Below, piece by piece: positions 160-19,631 of a DNA stretch of 64,000 bases. The translations under genes were made by a program, and so were the position numbers. The stretch comes from Aquipluma nitroreducens (GTDB taxonomy: Bacteria; Bacteroidota; Bacteroidia; Bacteroidales; Prolixibacteraceae). Each line of letters opens with the position of its first letter. Within the stretch, counting starts at the first letter, position 1. The DNA lies in the NCBI RefSeq assembly GCF_009689585.1, contig NZ_AP018694.1, forward strand, positions 2,371,001 through 2,435,000, read 5' to 3'. Under the pieces are notes generated by a model. The model did no database searches, was not told the origin of the DNA, and worked only from the letters and a program-made list of their open reading frames with translations.

Positions 160-172
160 AAATTAGTATTTA

Positions 173-194
173 AGGCATTAGGCAACAGGCAATG
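173..194. repeat. Left boundary repeat of S23 cassette 1
   Basis: Three imperfect copies of GGCAnnnG (GGCATTAG, GGCAACAG, GGCAATGG) lie just downstream of the S23 gene. They are the reverse complement of the CCATTGCC-type repeats on the other side of the same gene (599-651), so the gene is bounded by an inverted pair of simple repeats. Confidence 0.5.
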
Positions 195-211
195 GTAAAA
201 GTTATTCATAT

Positions 212-568
212 CTATTTGATTTTTGCTATTAATGAGGACAACATTTTATTTAAAGATTCAATTTTATTTAACAGGAAGCCTGATTCCTCCGAATCAAAAT
301 ATTTGAGCCTGATACAAAGCAATATTTGTGTTTCAACTTCTAATAACGACCCCCGACTAATAGAAAGAAATTGTTTATAGCTACCTGTCGATTGCCTTCC
401 ATATCCTTCAGCAATATTTGAGGGTATTGAAACAGAAGCTCTCCTCAATTGCGATACCAGACCAAATTGTTCCGCATCTGGCAACTTTTTTGTGAAATTA
501 TAGACATCTTCAACCAAATCTATTCCTCTTTGCCAAACCAATAGATCTTTATAGCTATTTATTACCAT
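212..568 (-). CDS. Four-helix bundle (S23 / rRNA-intervening-sequence type) protein
   Basis: This 118-residue protein has the S23 family signature: a start near YKDLLVWQRGIDLVEDVY, the central RRASVSIPSNIAEGYGR motif (about residues 42-58), then FLSISRGSLLEVETQ. It matches the usual family length (110-130). Homologs were first noted inside intervening sequences of Leptospira 23S rRNA. In Bacteroidota they are common as stand-alone genes of unknown function, and they form pentamers of four-helix bundles. The gene lies between a sensor gene and cheR, in the same direction as both, and is bounded by inverted GGCAATGG/CCATTGCC repeats. A second member occurs at 18326-18715. Confidence 0.85.
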   Translation of the reverse strand: MVINSYKDLLVWQRGIDLVEDVYNFTKKLPDAEQFGLVSQLRRASVSIPSNIAEGYGRQSTGSYKQFLSISRGSLLEVETQILLCIRLKYFDSEESGFLLNKIESLNKMLSSLIAKIK

Positions 569-598: not shown

Positions 599-651
599 TT
601 ACCCAATGTCTGTTACCCAATGTCTATTGCCCATTGCCCATTGCCCATTGC
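599..651. repeat. Right boundary repeat of S23 cassette 1, overlapping the cheR 3' end
   Basis: A run of near-tandem units (TTACCCAATGTC twice, then CCATTGC-type heptamers three times). It covers the last codons and the stop codon of the CheR-like gene (stop at 613-615), so the repeat supplies that protein's C-terminal tail. It is inverted relative to the copy at 173-194. Confidence 0.7.
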
Positions 652-1473
652 TTTTTTCTGAAATATGGCTGAATTAGCAAAAACTTCGCGGTAATTATTC
701 CCTTTTGCTATTTCCCGTTCAGTTTCACTGGTGATCAAGTAACCGCCGTTGGCCAAGCTGTTTCCTAGCTTATCAAGTATCCGGTTACGGTATACGGGTT
801 TATAATAAAACAGCAAATTACTGCAAAAAATCAGATCGAAATTTCCATAAATACTTGCTGGCGGGCATGTTCCTTCTCCGGAAAGCAGATCAAAAACCGA
901 AAAGTTGATGATCTCTTTAAGTCGTGGAATTACAGAGTATGTTTCTTCCTTTTGAATAAAATAAGTTTGAATTCGATTCAGCGATACTTTGCCCAGAGTC
1001 GCTGATGTATAATCGCCCACTTGAGCTTTTGTTAATTCACTTTCATTGTGGTCGGTAGCAAAAATCAGACATTGGGTTTCTTTCGGTTTATTTTGAGTCA
1101 GTTCATCACATAAAATTGAAAGGCTGTATGCTTCCTGTCCGCTTGCACAAGCTGCCGACCAAATCCTGATTTTCTTTTCGCGACTGATTCTTCTTTTCTC
1201 CAATAAGCCTGGCAGAATAATTTGTTCAAGGTAGGCAAAAGTCAATGGATTCCTGAAAAATTCACTGTACGAATTGCTCAGATTTCTTGCTAATTCTGCT
1301 TGTTCTTCCTTGTTTTCCTGAAGATTACTCAGGTATAAATCAGCGCTTTTAATTGATTTTGAAGCCATCCGCGCAGCGATTGTTCTTTCCAAAAAAGCAG
1401 GATCGAACACTGAAAGATCGATTGCCAATTTGTCTTTTAAGGACAGAATATGGTTTTCAAGGATGGATTTCAT
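613..1473 (-). CDS. CheR-type SAM-dependent methyltransferase
   Basis: The 286-residue protein has an all-helical N-terminal CheR domain (about 1-90, with the SYSEFFRNP motif) and a Rossmann methyltransferase domain. The SAM-binding loop is WSAACASGQEAYSLS. CheR enzymes methylate glutamates on chemoreceptors using S-adenosylmethionine; in Bacteroidota many act beside hybrid sensor kinases instead of true chemotaxis arrays. The adjoining sensor fragment (1-159) has a chemoreceptor-like N-terminus, in keeping with such a pair. Oddity: after FQKK the last dozen residues (AMGNGQWAIDIG) are encoded by the simple repeat at 599-651, so the original C-terminus has probably been replaced. Confidence 0.85.
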   Translation of the reverse strand: MKSILENHILSLKDKLAIDLSVFDPAFLERTIAARMASKSIKSADLYLSNLQENKEEQAELARNLSNSYSEFFRNPLTFAYLEQIILPGLLEKRRISREKKIRIWSAACASGQEAYSLSILCDELTQNKPKETQCLIFATDHNESELTKAQVGDYTSATLGKVSLNRIQTYFIQKEETYSVIPRLKEIINFSVFDLLSGEGTCPPASIYGNFDLIFCSNLLFYYKPVYRNRILDKLGNSLANGGYLITSETEREIAKGNNYREVFANSAIFQKKAMGNGQWAIDIG

Positions 1474-5470: not shown

Positions 5471-6073
5471 CTATTTTGAAATACATGTGAAATCAAATAT
5501 CAAATGCTTCAAAACTCCAATATCAGAATGATTCGATTCGTAATACTTGTTAAAAAGTTTATTTGATTTGAAAATTAAAGTTTCAGCATTTCTTTTGTCT
5601 TTTATCAATAAGGAGTTGATCCCTTCGACGGTTTCTTCTGATTCGCCTTCAAGAAGATAGCCAATCAAACTACCATTTTCGTATTTCCCGGAAACGAAGT
5701 TATTAATTCCAGTGTTAATGTATCTGCGTTTTAATGCAGAATCGTTTTGCTTCAAATTTTTTGCTTCAAAGAAATACTCATATTCATTACTTTTAGCAAA
5801 AGTAGTCAGCCTAAAATCGATTCTTGGAAATTTGTCGGAAAAACCTTTCATTTTCGGAATGTCTTTCGGAATGTCTGCTTCCACATTGGTTGACACTTTC
5901 CACTTTAGTCTTAACGGATTTCCTTTTATGTGACGGTGCAATTCAGAAGAAATATCGTTTTCATTCCAGTCTAATTGTATCACTTTTTCTGTCAATGAAG
6001 ATTGATATGCTTCAATAATTAACCGAAAGCATTTTTGCTCAAAAGCATCTTTATAGATATGATTTAATGCCAT
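5471..6073 (-). CDS. Putative PD-(D/E)XK restriction endonuclease subunit
   Basis: I do not recognise this 200-residue protein by family. It shows a nuclease-like core: RIDFRL (Asp86), then, after 16 residues, FFEAKNL (Glu103, Lys105). That spacing and pattern fit a PD-(D/E)XK active site. The gene starts two bases after the stop of the large methyltransferase gene upstream and is surely cotranscribed with it. An endonuclease partner of that methylase is therefore likely. Like the methylase, it is more AT-rich than the hydroxyproline genes on both sides, suggesting joint transfer. It could instead be a specificity or regulatory subunit. Confidence 0.6.
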   Translation of the reverse strand: MALNHIYKDAFEQKCFRLIIEAYQSSLTEKVIQLDWNENDISSELHRHIKGNPLRLKWKVSTNVEADIPKDIPKMKGFSDKFPRIDFRLTTFAKSNEYEYFFEAKNLKQNDSALKRRYINTGINNFVSGKYENGSLIGYLLEGESEETVEGINSLLIKDKRNAETLIFKSNKLFNKYYESNHSDIGVLKHLIFDFTCISK

Positions 6074-6075
6074 CG

Positions 6076-9000
6076 TTAATTCTCAGTTAAAAGCTCTAAA
6101 ATTAACTCCGATGCATCTTCTAATGCCATTGACTGTGACCAAAATCTACGTTGATTAGGACGAATGATGTAAATGTCATTTTCATTCTTGTAATTGAGCT
6201 TTTTGCGGAAATAGATATTTTGTGATTTCTTTTCCCAAAGTGATTGATCTATTTTGCTTAGTTCAGAATCAATCATTTCATCTGACTTTTGAATATCAAT
6301 TTTTATTGGCTGATGAGAAATTTTAATCATCATCAACGGACTATATTGGCTGACATTATAAACAGTTACGTTTGCAAACAAATCTTGACCATCAAGAAAT
6401 TCATTGAGTTCAGCGCTAATTAATTTTCCGTATTCTATTATTTGTTCCTGTATTACGGGATATAGGGCAATTGATTTTTCTTGCTTGTGAAATAAGTCTA
6501 AGCTATACTTTATTCCATCACTAATCAATGTCGTCTCATTATTTGTTAAATTAAAGCTTTCAAAAATTATTTTGTCAACATTCTCAAAAATATAATTTTC
6601 GAGATTTTGAGAATCAAAATCATTACTTAAAAAACTTTTAGACTTTAGCTCTCCTATAATATCCTTTGATGCATTAGCTAACGATTCTATTTGTTTTTCA
6701 TTAAGGTTTATAGGAATAGATAGGTATTCATTTTTCATTATTTGCTCTCTTTCAATTCCATATGATGAAATTGTCATAAAAAGATAGTAAGAACTAAGCT
6801 TTGAATTAAAATAAGACGTTAGTAAATATAATACATTAATATTTTGACTATCAGTATAAAATCCATATACTCCATCTTTAAAAGAACAAGGTATTTCAAT
6901 AAACGAAGAACATACTCTATTCTTTTCCAATCCTTTTTTAACGACAATATGGGGTTGAACAAATGATTCTAAATCTCCTAATCTCCTAAAAGCGGTCAAT
7001 TTATCAACTTCATCAATACTTGAAATATTGTAGAAATTTCTATAGAAATTTAATGCCTTGGTTGTTTTAATTGATTTTTTTACATCTAACAATAAGTTCT
7101 CAGGTGTGAAATACCTAGTTATTACATCTGCATCTAAATATTTTATGTTTGTTAAAACTTCGGAATATCTCGGTTTGTCGTTTACATTTGTGAGTAATCC
7201 AAATCCAACGCCAGATTTTATTTTTTTCTCTTTATTAAAAGTCTTAACCGTGTTAAATTTAGAATTGTCAAAACGTTGAATTAACTCCCAATCATTCATT
7301 CCGCCCCACATCGCTACTTTCCAGATTTTTGTGTCGGATTTCTGACATTCTTCTCTTGGTAGATATTTTAAATCCGTAAAATCAATACTCAACCCATCAA
7401 TTACATTTGATTTGATAAAGGTTTTTGGAGCATAATATACAATTTTATCAGAGGCTTGTTCTGGTTGTTCTTTCTGAAAATATACAATGCTTATTGGTCC
7501 TGTTGCATCTCCGAACAGTTGGCCTCCAAAATCTTTCTTTGCATTTCGAAGAATTGAAAAGTTGAATACTTTCTCCACGTAACAATCAGTGAATAACCAT
7601 TTTCTGAACTTTTGAAAAGTCCCACCAGTATTGGTTAAAACTTTGGTATTGAATATCAATGCAATTTCTCCATTCGGGGCAAACGTTGTTGATTTATGCA
7701 AAAATGGTAAAACCATTTCTTTTGCAAAATTATATTGGGTACAATAATTTCTGATATTTTTTTGCTTTTCATCTACATCTTTGTCCTCAGATAATAATTC
7801 GCCAAAAGGTGGATTTCCAACAACCAATTTGAAATCTTGTAGTAAATTTTCCTTTGATAGATCAGAAATTGTATCTCTTAGAAAAAGGTTATAACCTTGT
7901 TTTTGGGGATTATCTTCTTCAGGGTCATTTATTAAATATGGTAATTGATGATTTTTATCTTGCCAAAGATTTTTTGGATCCAATTTGTCAACTAATGCCA
8001 GATACAAACTGAATGCAGCCACTTTAATAGCTTGTGGATGAATTTCGATTCCGAAAATATTTTTCTTTAATAGCTGAACTAAAACTCTAAAATCAGAAAG
8101 TTTTTTTAGTTGATGAGCATTTTCATACCTTCTTACCAAACGGTTAAAACTTTCCACTAAAAAAATTCCGGATCCACAACTTGGATCTAAGATTTTAATA
8201 TTATACTCCTCTTTATTTACCGGGAGTTTTTCATTAAGAATAAATTCCACCAAAGATGGTGGAGTATAATACGTTCCCGAATCTTCCTTTAAAGTAGGGT
8301 CGGTCTCAGAAAGAAAATTTTCATAAATCTCGCTGAGTAATTCAATTTGAATAATTTTAAAATTGAACAATCTGAAAATTCGCCAATCTTCAAAGAGCTG
8401 TTGAGTATCATTCTTTTCTCTACCTCTTATAAAGCAGGTTTTTATGTTTTGTAATTGTTCTTCGTTTAGCTTTTCTTCGTTCGAATCTAACGTAAATACA
8501 TTTCCATTAAAATGCTCCTTTAGTCTTTTATACAAATCATATGTAGCATCTACGTCATTAAGTATATCGAAATATGATTCTGCTCCGTCTAAAAACTGAC
8601 AATAGAAATTTTTATCGGTAGCACCTCGATCTTCAAGATATAAGAGAAATAAGGATCTAAGAATTATTTTGTGGATTAAATCTAGCTTTAGTCCATCACC
8701 TTTAAGCTTACTGGCGGTATTTACCAAACTTGACACTAAGTATTTATCAACCCGGCGTTGTAAATTAATTTTTAGTCGAATTGAAACAGCTTCTTCAGAA
8801 GTCCAGATAATTCCCGTGTCAATTGCAATCCTTGAAAAAAGTTTGTTGAGTTCTTGAAGTTGATTTCTATCTGAAAAAATATAGGTTCCTATTTCAATAT
8901 TTTTCAGTTCCTTCTCGTAATCAAACCGTTCTTTGGTTTTAATGAGTGGTTTTTCAGAACAATTGTAAATGCGTATTTCAGTTTCTGAATAAACATATAA

Positions 9001-9273
9001 GAACAGTACTTTTTTGTAATTCCAGATTTTTCTGTGAATATCTGCTATTACAGGTAATGTTTCTTCATCAAAAGAGGTTACTTTTTTCAGAAACACGGCA
9101 GGAAAACTATTCCCATTTTCATCGGTATTGAAATAAACCGAATCAATAGTAAAATCTTTTTCTTTTAGTTCATTTAGAATAGCAGATTCGCTTTCTGAGG
9201 GGTTTTCATTCCTAGAATTCACAGATCTAGCTCTATCTAAGCCAATTGATTTTATTACTTCTTGTCCTGTCAT
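6076..9273 (-). CDS. Eco57I-type DNA adenine methyltransferase (restriction-modification)
   Basis: The 1065-residue protein carries the N6-adenine methylase motifs: YYTPPSLVEF (about 335), SAM-binding DPSCGSG (363-369) and catalytic NPPF (about 488-491). A long C-terminal half with alternating conserved blocks resembles the target-recognition part of type IIG/Eco57I-like enzymes. The N-terminal 150 residues (with YVYSETEIRIYNC) look like a degenerate nuclease-type fold, but I see no convincing PD-(D/E)XK triad there, and the small downstream partner does have one. The enzyme would methylate host DNA and may also take part in cutting. It lies, with its partner, between the two halves of the hydroxyproline locus and is strikingly AT-rich. 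Confidence 0.85.
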   Translation of the reverse strand: MTGQEVIKSIGLDRARSVNSRNENPSESESAILNELKEKDFTIDSVYFNTDENGNSFPAVFLKKVTSFDEETLPVIADIHRKIWNYKKVLFLYVYSETEIRIYNCSEKPLIKTKERFDYEKELKNIEIGTYIFSDRNQLQELNKLFSRIAIDTGIIWTSEEAVSIRLKINLQRRVDKYLVSSLVNTASKLKGDGLKLDLIHKIILRSLFLLYLEDRGATDKNFYCQFLDGAESYFDILNDVDATYDLYKRLKEHFNGNVFTLDSNEEKLNEEQLQNIKTCFIRGREKNDTQQLFEDWRIFRLFNFKIIQIELLSEIYENFLSETDPTLKEDSGTYYTPPSLVEFILNEKLPVNKEEYNIKILDPSCGSGIFLVESFNRLVRRYENAHQLKKLSDFRVLVQLLKKNIFGIEIHPQAIKVAAFSLYLALVDKLDPKNLWQDKNHQLPYLINDPEEDNPQKQGYNLFLRDTISDLSKENLLQDFKLVVGNPPFGELLSEDKDVDEKQKNIRNYCTQYNFAKEMVLPFLHKSTTFAPNGEIALIFNTKVLTNTGGTFQKFRKWLFTDCYVEKVFNFSILRNAKKDFGGQLFGDATGPISIVYFQKEQPEQASDKIVYYAPKTFIKSNVIDGLSIDFTDLKYLPREECQKSDTKIWKVAMWGGMNDWELIQRFDNSKFNTVKTFNKEKKIKSGVGFGLLTNVNDKPRYSEVLTNIKYLDADVITRYFTPENLLLDVKKSIKTTKALNFYRNFYNISSIDEVDKLTAFRRLGDLESFVQPHIVVKKGLEKNRVCSSFIEIPCSFKDGVYGFYTDSQNINVLYLLTSYFNSKLSSYYLFMTISSYGIEREQIMKNEYLSIPINLNEKQIESLANASKDIIGELKSKSFLSNDFDSQNLENYIFENVDKIIFESFNLTNNETTLISDGIKYSLDLFHKQEKSIALYPVIQEQIIEYGKLISAELNEFLDGQDLFANVTVYNVSQYSPLMMIKISHQPIKIDIQKSDEMIDSELSKIDQSLWEKKSQNIYFRKKLNYKNENDIYIIRPNQRRFWSQSMALEDASELILELLTEN

Positions 9274-17002: not shown

Positions 17003-17716
17003 TCAATTAGTTTCGTTTGGTGTAAAATTTTCTATAAAATCTTGCACATTCCAGGCATCTTCCAATTTCAGATCTCCAATTCTGGTCCTTATTAAACCCA
17101 CAAGATAAGCACCACTTGCAAGTTCGATACCCAAATCGCGAGCCAATGCCCTGATGTAAGTCCCTTTACTGCAAACAACTCTCAGCTTTATTTCCTGTTT
17201 GGAAAAATTTAACAATTCCAATTCGGAGATTGTAATTTTTTTTGGAGCAAGTACCATGTCGCTACCTTTTCGTGCATGTTCATATGCCCTTTTCCCCTCA
17301 ATTTTTATTGCGCTAAATAAAGGCGGAACCTGATCGTTTTCGCCGATAAAACGCTCTAATGCCTTTTGTATAAGTTCAGGGGTGAGATGGTCTGTAGGAA
17401 AAGTCTCGTTTTCAGCCGTTTCCAAATCGTATGATGGCGTTGTTGCTCCAAGTTTAATGGTTGCCACGTATTCTTTTTCCTTTGCCTGAATTTGATCGAT
17501 GTTCTTCGTTTCTTTTCCGGTACAAACGATCATTAAACCAGTAGCTTTCGGATCGAGTGTTCCGGCGTGACCAACTTTTAATTTTTTAACCCCGGTTCTG
17601 CGGCAAAGAAAATTGCGAAGTTTCCTTACCAGATCAAAAGATGTCCAATCCAATTCTTTATCAAAGAGAAGAATCTCTCCCTTTTCAAAATCGTACTCTT
17701 CAATGGATTTACCCAT
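17003..17716 (-). CDS. truB: tRNA pseudouridine(55) synthase
   Basis: The 237-residue protein has the TruB catalytic motif GHAGTLDPKATG with nucleophile Asp55, and the later VCSKGTYIRALARDLG motif. It isomerises U55 in the T-loop of tRNAs. It is shorter than the E. coli enzyme and lacks the C-terminal PUA domain, as is usual in this phylum. It is followed by queA after 86 bp. Confidence 0.97.
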   Translation of the reverse strand: MGKSIEEYDFEKGEILLFDKELDWTSFDLVRKLRNFLCRRTGVKKLKVGHAGTLDPKATGLMIVCTGKETKNIDQIQAKEKEYVATIKLGATTPSYDLETAENETFPTDHLTPELIQKALERFIGENDQVPPLFSAIKIEGKRAYEHARKGSDMVLAPKKITISELELLNFSKQEIKLRVVCSKGTYIRALARDLGIELASGAYLVGLIRTRIGDLKLEDAWNVQDFIENFTPNETN

Positions 17717-17993
17717 CCTAAAACGCTTTAAAATAAGTGATTTGTATCGGAAAAACCAGTCCGATTTTCAGGCCGCAAATATAGCGATTCGATAAGTATA
17801 ATACCAACAGTAGATTTAACAATTACTGATGAATTACAAAGAAATACTGAAGTTTAGGGTTAGTTACAATAAAAAATTCAGGAAAGAAACGAAACAGGAG
17901 CGATAAAATGATGTGTAACAATTTGAATTAAAGAGTGTAACAGGAATAACTGATAACAAATGTCCATCAGACATAGACCTTGTTAACCGTTTG
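17717..17993. other. Gap where uppP would be expected
   Basis: A 277-bp AT-rich stretch without a gene lies between DUF3098 and truB. In many Bacteroidota an undecaprenyl-diphosphatase gene (uppP) sits exactly here. I see no piece of it in any frame. Confidence 0.45.
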
Positions 17994-18239
17994 TTATTTC
18001 TCTGATTTAGGTTTTTTCATAATGGCATAAATCTCGAAAAGAAAGCCGAAGAGAACGACCATTGGTGCCAAGGTTATTCTCCTGAAGCTAAAAATTTCAG
18101 GATTAAAAGTAGATGGACTACTCGCTTTTCCTCCTGTCATGAGAAGAAAACCAAACACAATAATGACCAAGCCAATAACCATTAATTTTAGGTTTTCTTT
18201 GCCTAAGGCAAAGCCTTCCATATTGTCTAAATCTTTCAT
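17994..18239 (-). CDS. DUF3098 small membrane protein
   Basis: An 81-residue protein with two hydrophobic segments (about 18-36 and 56-74) separated by a PSTFNPEIFSFRRITLAPM linker typical of DUF3098. The family is restricted to Bacteroidota, usually lies directly after ftsX, and has no known function; a role with the FtsEX division apparatus has been guessed from context. Here the link to ftsX is broken by an inserted S23 cassette. Confidence 0.85.
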   Translation of the reverse strand: MKDLDNMEGFALGKENLKLMVIGLVIIVFGFLLMTGGKASSPSTFNPEIFSFRRITLAPMVVLFGFLFEIYAIMKKPKSEK

Positions 18240-18273
18240 CTGTTTATTTAAAAAATTTGCGTAAAGGTAGCTG

Positions 18274-18312
18274 AAAAGTTTAAAGTTTTGTGTTCAAAGT
18301 TTAAAGTTTTGT
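18274..18312. repeat. Left boundary repeat of S23 cassette 2
   Basis: Two copies of an AAAGTTTAAAGTTTTGT unit in tandem, 13 bp from the S23 stop codon. They are inverted relative to the AACTTTAGACTTTAAAATTTT run at 18718-18750 on the other side of the gene. The unit differs entirely from that of cassette 1. Confidence 0.55.
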
Positions 18313-18325
18313 AGCACGTAGATCG

Positions 18326-18715
18326 TCACTTGTATTTAACCCCCTTAATTTCTGTCTGATTAAGGTATACCATAAAACCACTTATCAATTTACTTACTTC
18401 TTCACATAATTGGATTGCCTGATCAAATTCTTCATTTGTAATATATTTATTGTCGTATGATCTATATAGCTGAGATCGCAATTCGCCTGAAGAGCCTTTT
18501 GCTATCGACAAGAATTGAATAAACTCCCTTCTTCCATTTCGTTCAAACCCTTCAGCAATATTATCCATAATGGATCCTGAAGATCCTTTTACCTGACCAA
18601 CAAGTCGATAATCTTTTGAAAATAAATCTTTCTGCGTAAAAAAATGAATTAGTTTACAAAGCTCACGAGCAAGTTGCCATGATTTAATGTCTTCAAACTT
18701 TTCAATATTAGCCAT
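18326..18715 (-). CDS. Four-helix bundle (S23 type) protein, second copy
   Basis: The 129-residue protein belongs to the same family as 212-568: FEDIKSWQLARELCKLIHFFT at the start, then GSSGSIMDNIAEGFER (about 46-61) and FLSIAKGSSGELRSQLYR. The two are clearly not recent duplicates, since they differ at most positions outside the motifs. The gene has been placed between ftsX and DUF3098, normally neighbours, reading in the operon direction. It is bounded by an inverted pair of simple repeats. The function is unknown. Confidence 0.88.
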   Translation of the reverse strand: MANIEKFEDIKSWQLARELCKLIHFFTQKDLFSKDYRLVGQVKGSSGSIMDNIAEGFERNGRREFIQFLSIAKGSSGELRSQLYRSYDNKYITNEEFDQAIQLCEEVSKLISGFMVYLNQTEIKGVKYK

Positions 18716-18717
18716 AA

Positions 18718-18750
18718 CATTAAACGTTGAACTTTAGACTTTAAAATTTT
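18718..18750. repeat. Right boundary repeat of S23 cassette 2, abutting the ftsX stop
   Basis: A run of related words (TTAAACGTTGAAC, TTTAGACTTTAAAATTTT) that is inverted relative to 18274-18312. It reaches the last base of the ftsX stop codon, mirroring how the cassette 1 repeat meets the cheR stop. Confidence 0.55.
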
Positions 18751-19631
18751 CAGTAATACAATTCGTCAAACTTTAGCCTAATGAATTTATTAACTGCCAT
18801 ATAGGTTGAACTCCATGAAATTAATATGCCCAAAAACAAAACAGAGGCAAACACAATCCCAAAAATCGTAAAATCATCCAAACTTATAATGCCCGTCAAC
18901 TCCGAAGCATATGACATCATGAGCATAAACAGAACCAAATTAGCGGCTAAAGCTCCAATGAGTCCATATTTTATACTTCTCTTGACAAAAGGAGCCCGGA
19001 TAAAACTGTCGGTGGCGCCAACCATCAGCATGGTATTGATAATGAATCGTTGGGAGTAAATCGAAATCCGGATGGTATTGTTAATGAGCGCAAAAAAGAT
19101 AACTAACAAAAGAACCGAGAAAAAAATCAAAATCAGACCGATCTTCTGTACGTTTTCGTTGATAATCTTAACCATATCGTGCTGATACGATACTTCCTTT
19201 ATCTGAGGATATTCCATGAATCTTTTTTCAAGAATAACCAGTTGTTCCGGAGTGGCAAAATCGGCATTCAACTTCACATCAACCGAGGAAAGCAAAGGAT
19301 TATATCCCAGAAAACCCGTAAAATCCTCACCCAATTCGGTCTTTAATCTTTCTGCGGCAGTAGCTTTATCAATGTATTCAGCCTCTTTTACAAAGTTGGC
19401 AGCTTTTAGAGATTTCAACAGATCGGCAATTTCGTTTTCCGGTACATCATCTTTTAACACGAGCGTAAAACCAATGTTTTCGCGGACATATTTGGCAAGC
19501 CGTTCGGCATTGAGCAATACAACTCCAAGCATGCCGATCAGGAACAAAACCATCGAAATACTGATTGTAGAGGTCAAGTATGACCTGAAAATCCGTTTGT
19601 TCAGCTTTTGATGCTGCGCTTTGCCTGCCAT
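18750..19631 (-). CDS. ftsX: Cell division ABC-transporter-like protein FtsX
   Basis: The 293-residue protein has the FtsX layout: one membrane segment near the N-terminus (about 20-45), an extracytoplasmic domain (about 50-165, with VLKDDVPENEIADL), and three C-terminal membrane segments (about 168-190, 215-240, 258-283). With FtsE it regulates peptidoglycan hydrolases at the division site; ftsE is not in the window. It follows the YfhO gene by 6 bp and is probably cotranscribed with it. Confidence 0.93.
   Translation of the reverse strand: MAGKAQHQKLNKRIFRSYLTSTISISMVLFLIGMLGVVLLNAERLAKYVRENIGFTLVLKDDVPENEIADLLKSLKAANFVKEAEYIDKATAAERLKTELGEDFTGFLGYNPLLSSVDVKLNADFATPEQLVILEKRFMEYPQIKEVSYQHDMVKIINENVQKIGLILIFFSVLLLVIFFALINNTIRISIYSQRFIINTMLMVGATDSFIRAPFVKRSIKYGLIGALAANLVLFMLMMSYASELTGIISLDDFTIFGIVFASVLFLGILISWSSTYMAVNKFIRLKFDELYY

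Follow-up and report, generated by a model that had tools for sequence, protein, structure and literature searches.

A heptad-armed S23 gene at the ftsX-DUF3098 junction of Aquipluma nitroreducens: a probable copy of a mobile cassette resembling 23S rRNA intervening sequences

Background

S23 proteins are widespread, and their genes have been described in intervening sequences (IVSs) of 23S rRNA. According to passages of PMC4990558, the IVS of Coxiella burnetii contains an S23 open reading frame and an inverted-repeat stem, is excised by RNase III and carries tandem heptameric repeats before the reading frame. What 23S rRNA IVSs do and how they arose is termed unclear in the same passages, which also describe an S23-family protein of Xanthomonas as a five-fold ring of four-helix bundles. 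The family profile, PF05635, resembles Avd, a related four-helix-bundle family of diversity-generating retroelements, and in the part of PMC10053308 that concerns this point structures are taken to suggest homology.

Heptameric repeats are also known from bacterial genomes in their own right, and the relevant passages of PMC4692102 and PMC4679880 report them without a mechanism. GGGAATC units occur in Xanthomonas and GGGGA(C/T)T units in Nostoc (PMC4692102), whereas TAACTGA heptamers were found in Beggiatoaceae, Cyanobacteria and Bacteroidetes, with no transfer mechanism evident (PMC4679880). In these passages each paper deals with one heptad type and draws no link to S23, a term with zero occurrences in the main texts of both. 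A literature search that had most subscription journals and bioRxiv outside its reach gave, among the matches listed, no paper tying S23 genes to operon junctions or heptad arms, barring the heptamers of the Coxiella IVS (PMC4990558).

A further system for comparison is that of RAYT genes and REP sequences, in which, too, a small gene lies inside a fold-back pair. REPs also have gene-free relatives in the same genome. To our knowledge S23 is not a nuclease family.

Here we describe an S23 gene in a window of 64,000 nucleotides of the Aquipluma nitroreducens genome (contig NZ_AP018694.1, positions 2,371,001 to 2,435,000) and compare it with S23 loci of the same genome, of the genus, of other Bacteroidota and of a second phylum.

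Results

The S23 cassette between ftsX and the DUF3098 gene

The gene at 18326..18715 (minus strand) codes for a four-helix-bundle protein of 129 amino acids, which belongs to the S23 family by its matches to PF05635 (108.3 bits in hmmscan, cut-off 33.8, profile positions 1-106 of 106) and TIGR02436 (103.5 bits, cut-off 24). Its relatives in the PDB, found by sequence, are 2gsc and 2rld. The upstream host gene is ftsX (18750..19631, minus strand, PF18075 and PF02687) and the downstream one a DUF3098 gene (17994..18239, minus strand, PF11297, 104 bits); with truB (17003-17716, minus strand), the minus-strand order is ftsX, S23, DUF3098, truB.

The downstream arm (aaaagtttaaagttttgtgttcaaagtttaaagtttt, 18274..18310, minus strand) consists of about five heptads, of the AAACTTT type in the S23 sense, and the upstream arm (18716..18753, minus strand) is its reverse complement. 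Aligned with each other, the arms are identical in 31 of 38 columns; the alignment starts at CTGAAAA and includes the TGA of ftsX. This stop codon (18750-18752) lies inside the outer end of the upstream arm and is abutted by the part 18716-18749. Both statements of the initial annotation on this point, that the S23 gene sits in an inverted pair between ftsX and DUF3098 and that the right-hand repeat reaches the ftsX stop codon, were thus confirmed. At its outer end the stem consists of native flank: the CTTTTCAG there is present also in relatives without S23. The units are imperfect, and the strict lag-7 threshold of our genome scan (21 of 28 matches) is missed by them.

The inverted-repeat score of the cassette, 42, was the highest of 306 genes scored alike in 464 kb of the genome, a set that includes this S23 gene itself and at least one other. 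In another version of the scoring, with a motif filter that dropped seven loci, comparison with swapped flanks of 33 loci gave p=0.0047. A RAYT link was considered on account of the best non-S23 gene of the set (score 32), which codes for a Y1-type protein; it was abandoned, the arms of that gene being REP-like palindromes and not heptads. The RAYT-like Y1 transposase gene of this genome, identified by eye (L071:10191-10652), has REP-type palindromes without heptads on its flanks. The ftsX cassette differs from the REP/RAYT arrangement in that the gene between its arms is S23 and not a Y1 transposase between REP palindromes.

The probable extent of the element, 18277..18752 (minus strand), is given by DNA homology with the S23 cassette L124, which lies at a different gene junction, followed by a gene that by eye encodes a dehydrogenase E1 subunit. 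The two share 76% DNA identity (476/479 nt) over a stretch that begins at the ftsX stop codon and ends close to the outer edge of the other arm.

The likeness to the 23S rRNA IVS, as far as the latter is depicted in the passages mentioned above, lies in an S23 reading frame within terminal inverted repeats (31/38, with the pairing into a stem a prediction), in tandem heptameric repeats and in an insertion tolerated by the host RNA. In contrast to the IVS, the insertion here is in the RNA of a protein-coding operon, there are many copies that differ from one another, and the junctions are at stop codons. Because the cassette lies at the ftsX/DUF3098 junction instead of within a 23S rRNA gene, we do not class it as an IVS. 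In the way it appears to work, it resembles one.

Predicted pairing of the arms

The predicted RNA fold joins the two arms of the ftsX cassette, with 38.7 expected arm-arm pairs. The fold of the whole 494 nt is unremarkable in stability (z -0.97; 18 of 100 shuffles were at least equal). Across 59 loci, with one swapped partner each, the expected arm-arm pairs numbered 21.8 for own and 9.1 for swapped arms (p=3e-8). Within eight same-site groups the values were 31.0 and 27.0 (p=0.007), several groups being without a difference, and no base-by-base covariation of the arms was found inside the lineages of these groups. Since own and swapped arms pair about equally well there, the same-site groups provide no covariation proof of an RNA stem, and we regard the arm-arm stem as plausible on the basis of the fold model. 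The genome has one RNase III gene. A search of Rfam with 17900-19000 gave no match.

S23 genes of this genome

Assembled as one contig of 5.71 Mb and 99.7% complete, the genome contains 12 matches to PF05635, 11 of them above the cut-off; 14 control genomes contain none. All 12 loci lie between co-directional protein-coding genes on the strand of the S23 gene, and the junctions, named by eye, include mutA/mutB, hisH/hisA, hisC/hisB, nuoJ/nuoK, leuC/leuD, a macA/macB-like pair and hydrogenase genes. In 120-bp flanks the mean inverted-repeat score was 27.9 for these 12 and 30.9 for the 40 loci of own genome and genus together; the 1560 swapped pairs averaged 16.7 and the control genes 16.8. The 95th percentile of the controls was passed by 10 of the 12, 35 of the 40 and 16 of the 306 controls.

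Cassette 1 (L003), the other S23 cassette within the window, is of the same design, with its S23 gene at 212..568 (minus strand, PF05635 132.4 bits), a downstream arm recognized by eye at 171..195 (minus strand, ccattgcctgttgcctaatgcctta in the S23 sense) and, as upstream arm, a heptad array at 613..662 (minus strand, 24/28 lag-7 matches). The upstream arm extends into the final part of the preceding gene (613-1473, minus strand) and codes for its C-terminal tail, GNGQWAIDIG. Elsewhere in the window, at 1784-1823, a bare heptad array (TTATCCATTAATCATTTATAATTAATCATTCATCATTGCT) stands just ahead of the gene at 1829, with no adjoining S23.

S23 is under strong purifying selection: dN/dS had a median of 0.059 and a maximum of 0.204 over 38 pairs, all with dS between 0.05 and 2. 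Such low values, kept up for long at a single site, are compatible with a host function no less than with a selfish element. Among the genus matches listed, seven S23 matches have internal stops.

Generality of the design

The flank survey of Bacteroidota S23 genes that the initial annotation had called for was carried out on 120 loci: the 12 above, 28 from the genus, in which PF05635 is present in 23 of 23 genomes (own included), and 80 further contig loci. The latter are the best 80 of at least 80 relatives of one S23 subfamily; their phylum labels are those of the record titles, nearly all Bacteroidota, with one (L131) titled Planctomycetes. Three contig loci near contig ends were left out of flank scoring, leaving 77 contig loci and 117 in all.

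In the 77 contig loci the score of a gene's own flanks was 33.8 and that of swapped flanks 20.4 (p=1.5e-25); for the 12 loci of the own genome the same comparison gave p=2e-8. The survey thus did not refute the design, and supports it as a general one rather than a product of chance. Singly, 31 of the 77 loci pass the 95th percentile of the swapped pairs and 13 the 99th. Lag-7 self-similarity (16 of 21 matches) was found in 68 of 154 near flanks and in none of 151 flanks 320-400 bp away, while control lags of 5, 6 and 8-11 were seen in 0 to 6 of the same near flanks.

As to placement, 69 loci have both an upstream array and a called gene before it; the median array start there is 1 nt past the upstream stop codon (quartiles -4 and +4), and 59 starts fall within -21 to +10. 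Both neighbours are in the sense direction at 109 of the 120 loci; four are mixed, seven could be assigned on one side only and none has both neighbours antisense. In the background, 121 of 228 genes have same-strand neighbours on both sides. Strict inversion is less general: inverted arms are clearly better at 79 of 117 loci and direct arms at 16, close relatives of the ftsX cassette (L121, L122, L059) among the latter, and 47 of 117 exceed neither 95% threshold. Of the common layout proposed earlier, the co-directional position where an upstream gene ends therefore stands, but not inversion as a fixed rule.

Recurrent junctions, by eye, are sufA/B, sufB/C, sufC/D, his genes, mutA/B and a dehydrogenase E2 or E3 gene before E1, and the same junctions of suf, his, mut and pdh operons recur across genera. 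At leuC/leuD (L106, L096) S23 is present in G000, the genome studied here, and G003, and other palindromic repeats take its place in G017 and G013; the junction is maybe a hot spot for small elements. At nuoJ/nuoK of G013 (L114) a 154-bp gap holds an apparent S23 remnant which, by eye, looks like a decayed cassette.

Through the record titled Planctomycetes a second phylum was reached, in which PF05635 was present in 37 of 79 genomes (34 above the cut-off). Its 37 loci scored 29.9 with their own and 14.8 with swapped flanks (p=6e-17), and lag-7 similarity marked 21 of 74 near flanks and 2 of 68 distant ones, against 4 and 6 near flanks for lags 6 and 8. Sense placement was weaker (12 loci sense, 3 antisense, 7 mixed, 15 without a call). 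S23 also occurs in 21 plasmid records, and the three loci read, on two cyanobacterial plasmids, have the arm-S23-arm design.

The heptad

From the 240 flanks of the 120 loci, 145 arrays (77 upstream, 68 downstream) could be aligned in phase. Downstream arrays have the consensus T-T-R-A-A-C-T with a variable second place, which can be written (YTNRAAC)n, and upstream arrays have its reverse complement. The information of the downstream set was 4.51 bits, compared with 3.00 (sd 0.06, maximum 3.11) in 30 permuted sets, in which base order was shuffled inside heptads and which, here as for the G072 motif below, were fitted with fewer restarts. Joining the downstream with the reverse-complemented upstream arrays gave 4.47 bits; joining them in the same sense gave 3.89. 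The shared consensus and polarity indicate that the arms are divergent versions of one polar heptad, not unrelated sequences. The view that the ftsX repeat shares nothing with that of cassette 1 has to be given up: both are period-7 arrays, and S23 arrays have this degenerate consensus and polarity in common.

The arms agree with the heptameric simple repeats, as these appear in the cited passages, in period, in mostly intergenic position near gene ends or starts and in patchy spread. They are tandem 7-base units in intergenic DNA near gene ends, those of the ftsX cassette imperfect. Stops in all three frames, expected of heptads as 7 = 1 mod 3, were found in 24 of 77 upstream arrays (13.4 after shuffling) and 29 of 68 downstream arrays (10.3); this modest excess left them a side idea and not the reason for heptads.

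Heptads without S23

In the 464-kb sample of the own genome there are eight lag-7 arrays (21 of 28), and 0 to 2 at each of the lags 4-13 except 7, with three at the multiple, 14. S23 cassettes account for two of the eight; another, L079:11158-11248, is a bare hairpin. Far more arrays were found in G072 of the second phylum, where 353 kb (L243-L262) contain 79 lag-7 and 39 lag-8 arrays, among which are many bare hairpins that differ in their units, a density biased upward because 11 contigs had been chosen for holding S23. G072 has 12 S23 genes, five of them in the sampled stretches. Its arrays, mostly without S23, have the common motif C-A-A-K-T-A-T (4.17 bits, at most 3.35 in permuted sets), which is only partly like the Bacteroidota heptad.

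Comparison of the second-phylum samples shows, at the level of sequence, that S23 co-occurs with period-7 arrays. The 11 sampled genomes with S23 contain 90 lag-7 arrays in 670 kb (arrays in seven genomes, none in four), and outside G072 there are still 11 in 317 kb, spread over six of ten S23 genomes; none of 21 sampled genomes without S23 has a lag-7 array in 824 kb. Control lags did not differ between genomes without and with S23 (lag 6, 10 and 13; lag 9, 9 and 7), and lag 8 gave 1 and 39, all of the latter in G072. The number of lag-7 arrays correlates with that of S23 genes with a Spearman coefficient of 0.75 over 32 genomes, kinship ignored, in a small sample of two contigs each for 30 of the 32.

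Empty sites and movement

Counting the genome itself, 58 of 61 genomes have an FtsX match. In 28 of 29 relatives the DUF3098 gene (by eye) follows ftsX directly, with no S23, and in one another gene does; the site is empty of S23 also in the sister species G017, whose FtsX is 97% identical. Insertion at ftsX appears recent because S23 is absent from this site in the relatives. The empty site of G017 carries the heptad-like GAACTTG GAATTTG GAACTTT. The idea derived from this, that arms stem from the target, was dropped as an overall explanation, since across sites it is mainly the S23 lineage that arms follow (see below).

For ten further cassettes of the genome, 28 orthologous sites in three relatives were compared. 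S23 was present at seven, an S23-free hairpin (judged, like this whole tally, by eye) at six and neither at 15. The same S23 lineage occurred in the sister at only two of 11 junctions compared, L003 being left out. At hisH/hisA the sister has an S23 seemingly of another subfamily, with other arms; mutA/mutB shows four states in four species; and different S23 lineages can occupy one junction with 27-32% identity (L007 versus L052-L068).

The converse, one lineage at different sites, was also observed. At 78% protein identity, the nearest relatives of the ftsX cassette are located ahead of a dehydrogenase E1 gene, and their arms have the same AAACTTT heptads. Homology with the ftsX cassette starts at -32 from the S23 start in L122 and at -6 in L121; in the latter it excludes the upstream arm and the arms are direct, which counts against movement as a unit. 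L056 and L130 have 82% DNA identity over the 513 nt between their arm edges, and their neighbours are unrelated (4% and 6%).

The strongest argument for a mobile unit is that arm similarity tracks S23 identity across different sites. In pairs from different sites with 75-85% S23 identity (n=18, non-independent) mean arm similarity was 53.9, against about 25 for pairs below 45% identity. At 45-65% identity, 43 same-site pairs (26.5-26.9) were no better than different-site pairs (32.4, 35.4), whereas same-site pairs were more similar at 65-75% (59.0 versus 43.6) and at 75-85% (79.6 versus 53.9). L126 and L129, at different sites and with about 80% S23 identity, nevertheless have an arm similarity of 26. 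L003 and loci near contig ends were left out of these comparisons. Arm type goes mainly with S23 lineage, and the site is not without effect.

No fixed terminal inverted repeat is common to the copies: swapped arms pair at background level and share only the degenerate heptad. The only gene seen between arms is S23, with no transposase gene; a mobilising enzyme might act in trans. A search for phage carriage gave no match in 50,697 phage records, and one for defence genes with PADLOC gave none either. By eye, direct duplications of about 30-45 bp are present at L010 and L006 and none is evident at the ftsX site. At L010, L006 and L012 the fold-back arms recur as direct repeats to either side of S23, possibly as duplications made at insertion.

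Discussion

The S23 gene at ftsX is probably a copy of a mobile, hairpin-closed S23 cassette, the messenger-RNA counterpart of the S23-bearing 23S rRNA IVS. The cassette, laid out as outer heptad arm, S23 gene and outer heptad arm, would by parsimony have entered the short gap between the ftsX stop codon and the next gene after the split from the sister species. Placed in the sense direction of the operon, it would be read by host transcription, and the two arms are predicted to pair in the transcript into a stem closing off the S23 message. By analogy with the S23-bearing IVS, RNase III would cut this stem. The S23 protein, with a five-fold ring as its solved relative, may bind the heptad arms, and the unit would presumably be copied into new junctions. 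The unit, its arms, the heptad, the preference for junctions and the movement are what genome comparison shows, on sequence grounds. The arm-gene-arm units at other junctions in relatives suggest a widespread, little-noticed kind of mobile element.

Of the alternatives, the one closest to this reading takes the heptad hairpins themselves as what moves or recombines, in the manner of REPs or MITEs, with S23 a passenger spread by recombination between pre-existing hairpins at gene ends. It would account for the excess of bare arrays over S23 genes in G072 (79 to 5 in 353 kb), for the arms that are direct repeats and for L010 and L006, where the sister has a similar S23-free hairpin and the S23 gene of our genome is flanked, by eye, by a direct duplication of one arm. 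Arm type, however, mainly follows the S23 lineage, the 21 genomes without S23 lack lag-7 arrays in 824 kb, and several targets are without any hairpin in relatives: the junctions of G003 corresponding to L002, L008 and L012 measure 5, 2 and 5 bp, and at L005 three relatives have 51-52 bp of unremarkable sequence. On balance we hold this alternative to be unlikely. We give still less weight to the view that S23 is a normal gene of the host, with a regulating or stabilising effect on its operon, and that the arms are processing or termination signals under selection. The median dN/dS of 0.059, the recurrence of junctions across genera and the placement at stop codons are what such a gene would show, but its patchy presence (the same lineage at 2/11 junctions in the sister), the occupation of one junction by lineages of 27-32% identity and the occurrence of one lineage in unrelated operons are not.

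Mobility of the diversity-generating-retroelement type, in which S23 would act like Avd with a reverse transcriptase copying the cassette, is suggested by the resemblance of PF05635 to Avd noted in the cited part of PMC10053308. The single-contig genome, 99.7% complete and with 12 S23 matches, contains no match to the reverse transcriptase profile RVT_1, for which the same search was positive in three of 14 control genomes; a step dependent on reverse transcriptase would need another place or another enzyme. We consider this explanation very improbable. As to low-complexity sequence lying by chance beside an unremarkable gene, background flanks do score about 17 for inverted repeats, and singly 47 of 117 loci pass neither threshold. 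Against this are the excess of own over swapped pairs (p from 2e-8 to 1.5e-25), a period of 7 near S23 that is absent 320-400 bp away and a consensus of 4.51 bits where permuted sets reach at most 3.11, and we attach next to no probability to chance.

The cassette reading ties together three puzzles, namely S23 genes, 23S rRNA IVSs and heptameric repeats, and this tie opens direct tests of questions for which we had found none. Outside rRNA, S23 genes appear as heptad-armed units at suf, his, nuo, mut, pdh and other conserved-operon junctions (names by eye). A bolder proposal, which we put forward tentatively and consider possible though doubtful, is that S23 is the missing factor behind bacterial heptameric intergenic repeats. 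It would be a ring-forming nucleic-acid-binding protein without a nuclease or reverse transcriptase of its own; its gene would be carried in heptad arms as autonomous cassettes, and its product would make, keep or spread the S23-free hairpins, each subunit contacting one heptad. Copies that landed in rRNA would then be what is known as 23S rRNA IVSs. If true, this would define a new class of mobile element.

A further observation concerns another part of the window. A large gene at 6076-9273, beside a gene for 200 amino acids at 5471-6073, contains an NPPFG motif, which we take to be typical of N6 DNA methylases, and the two genes maybe form a restriction or defence unit.
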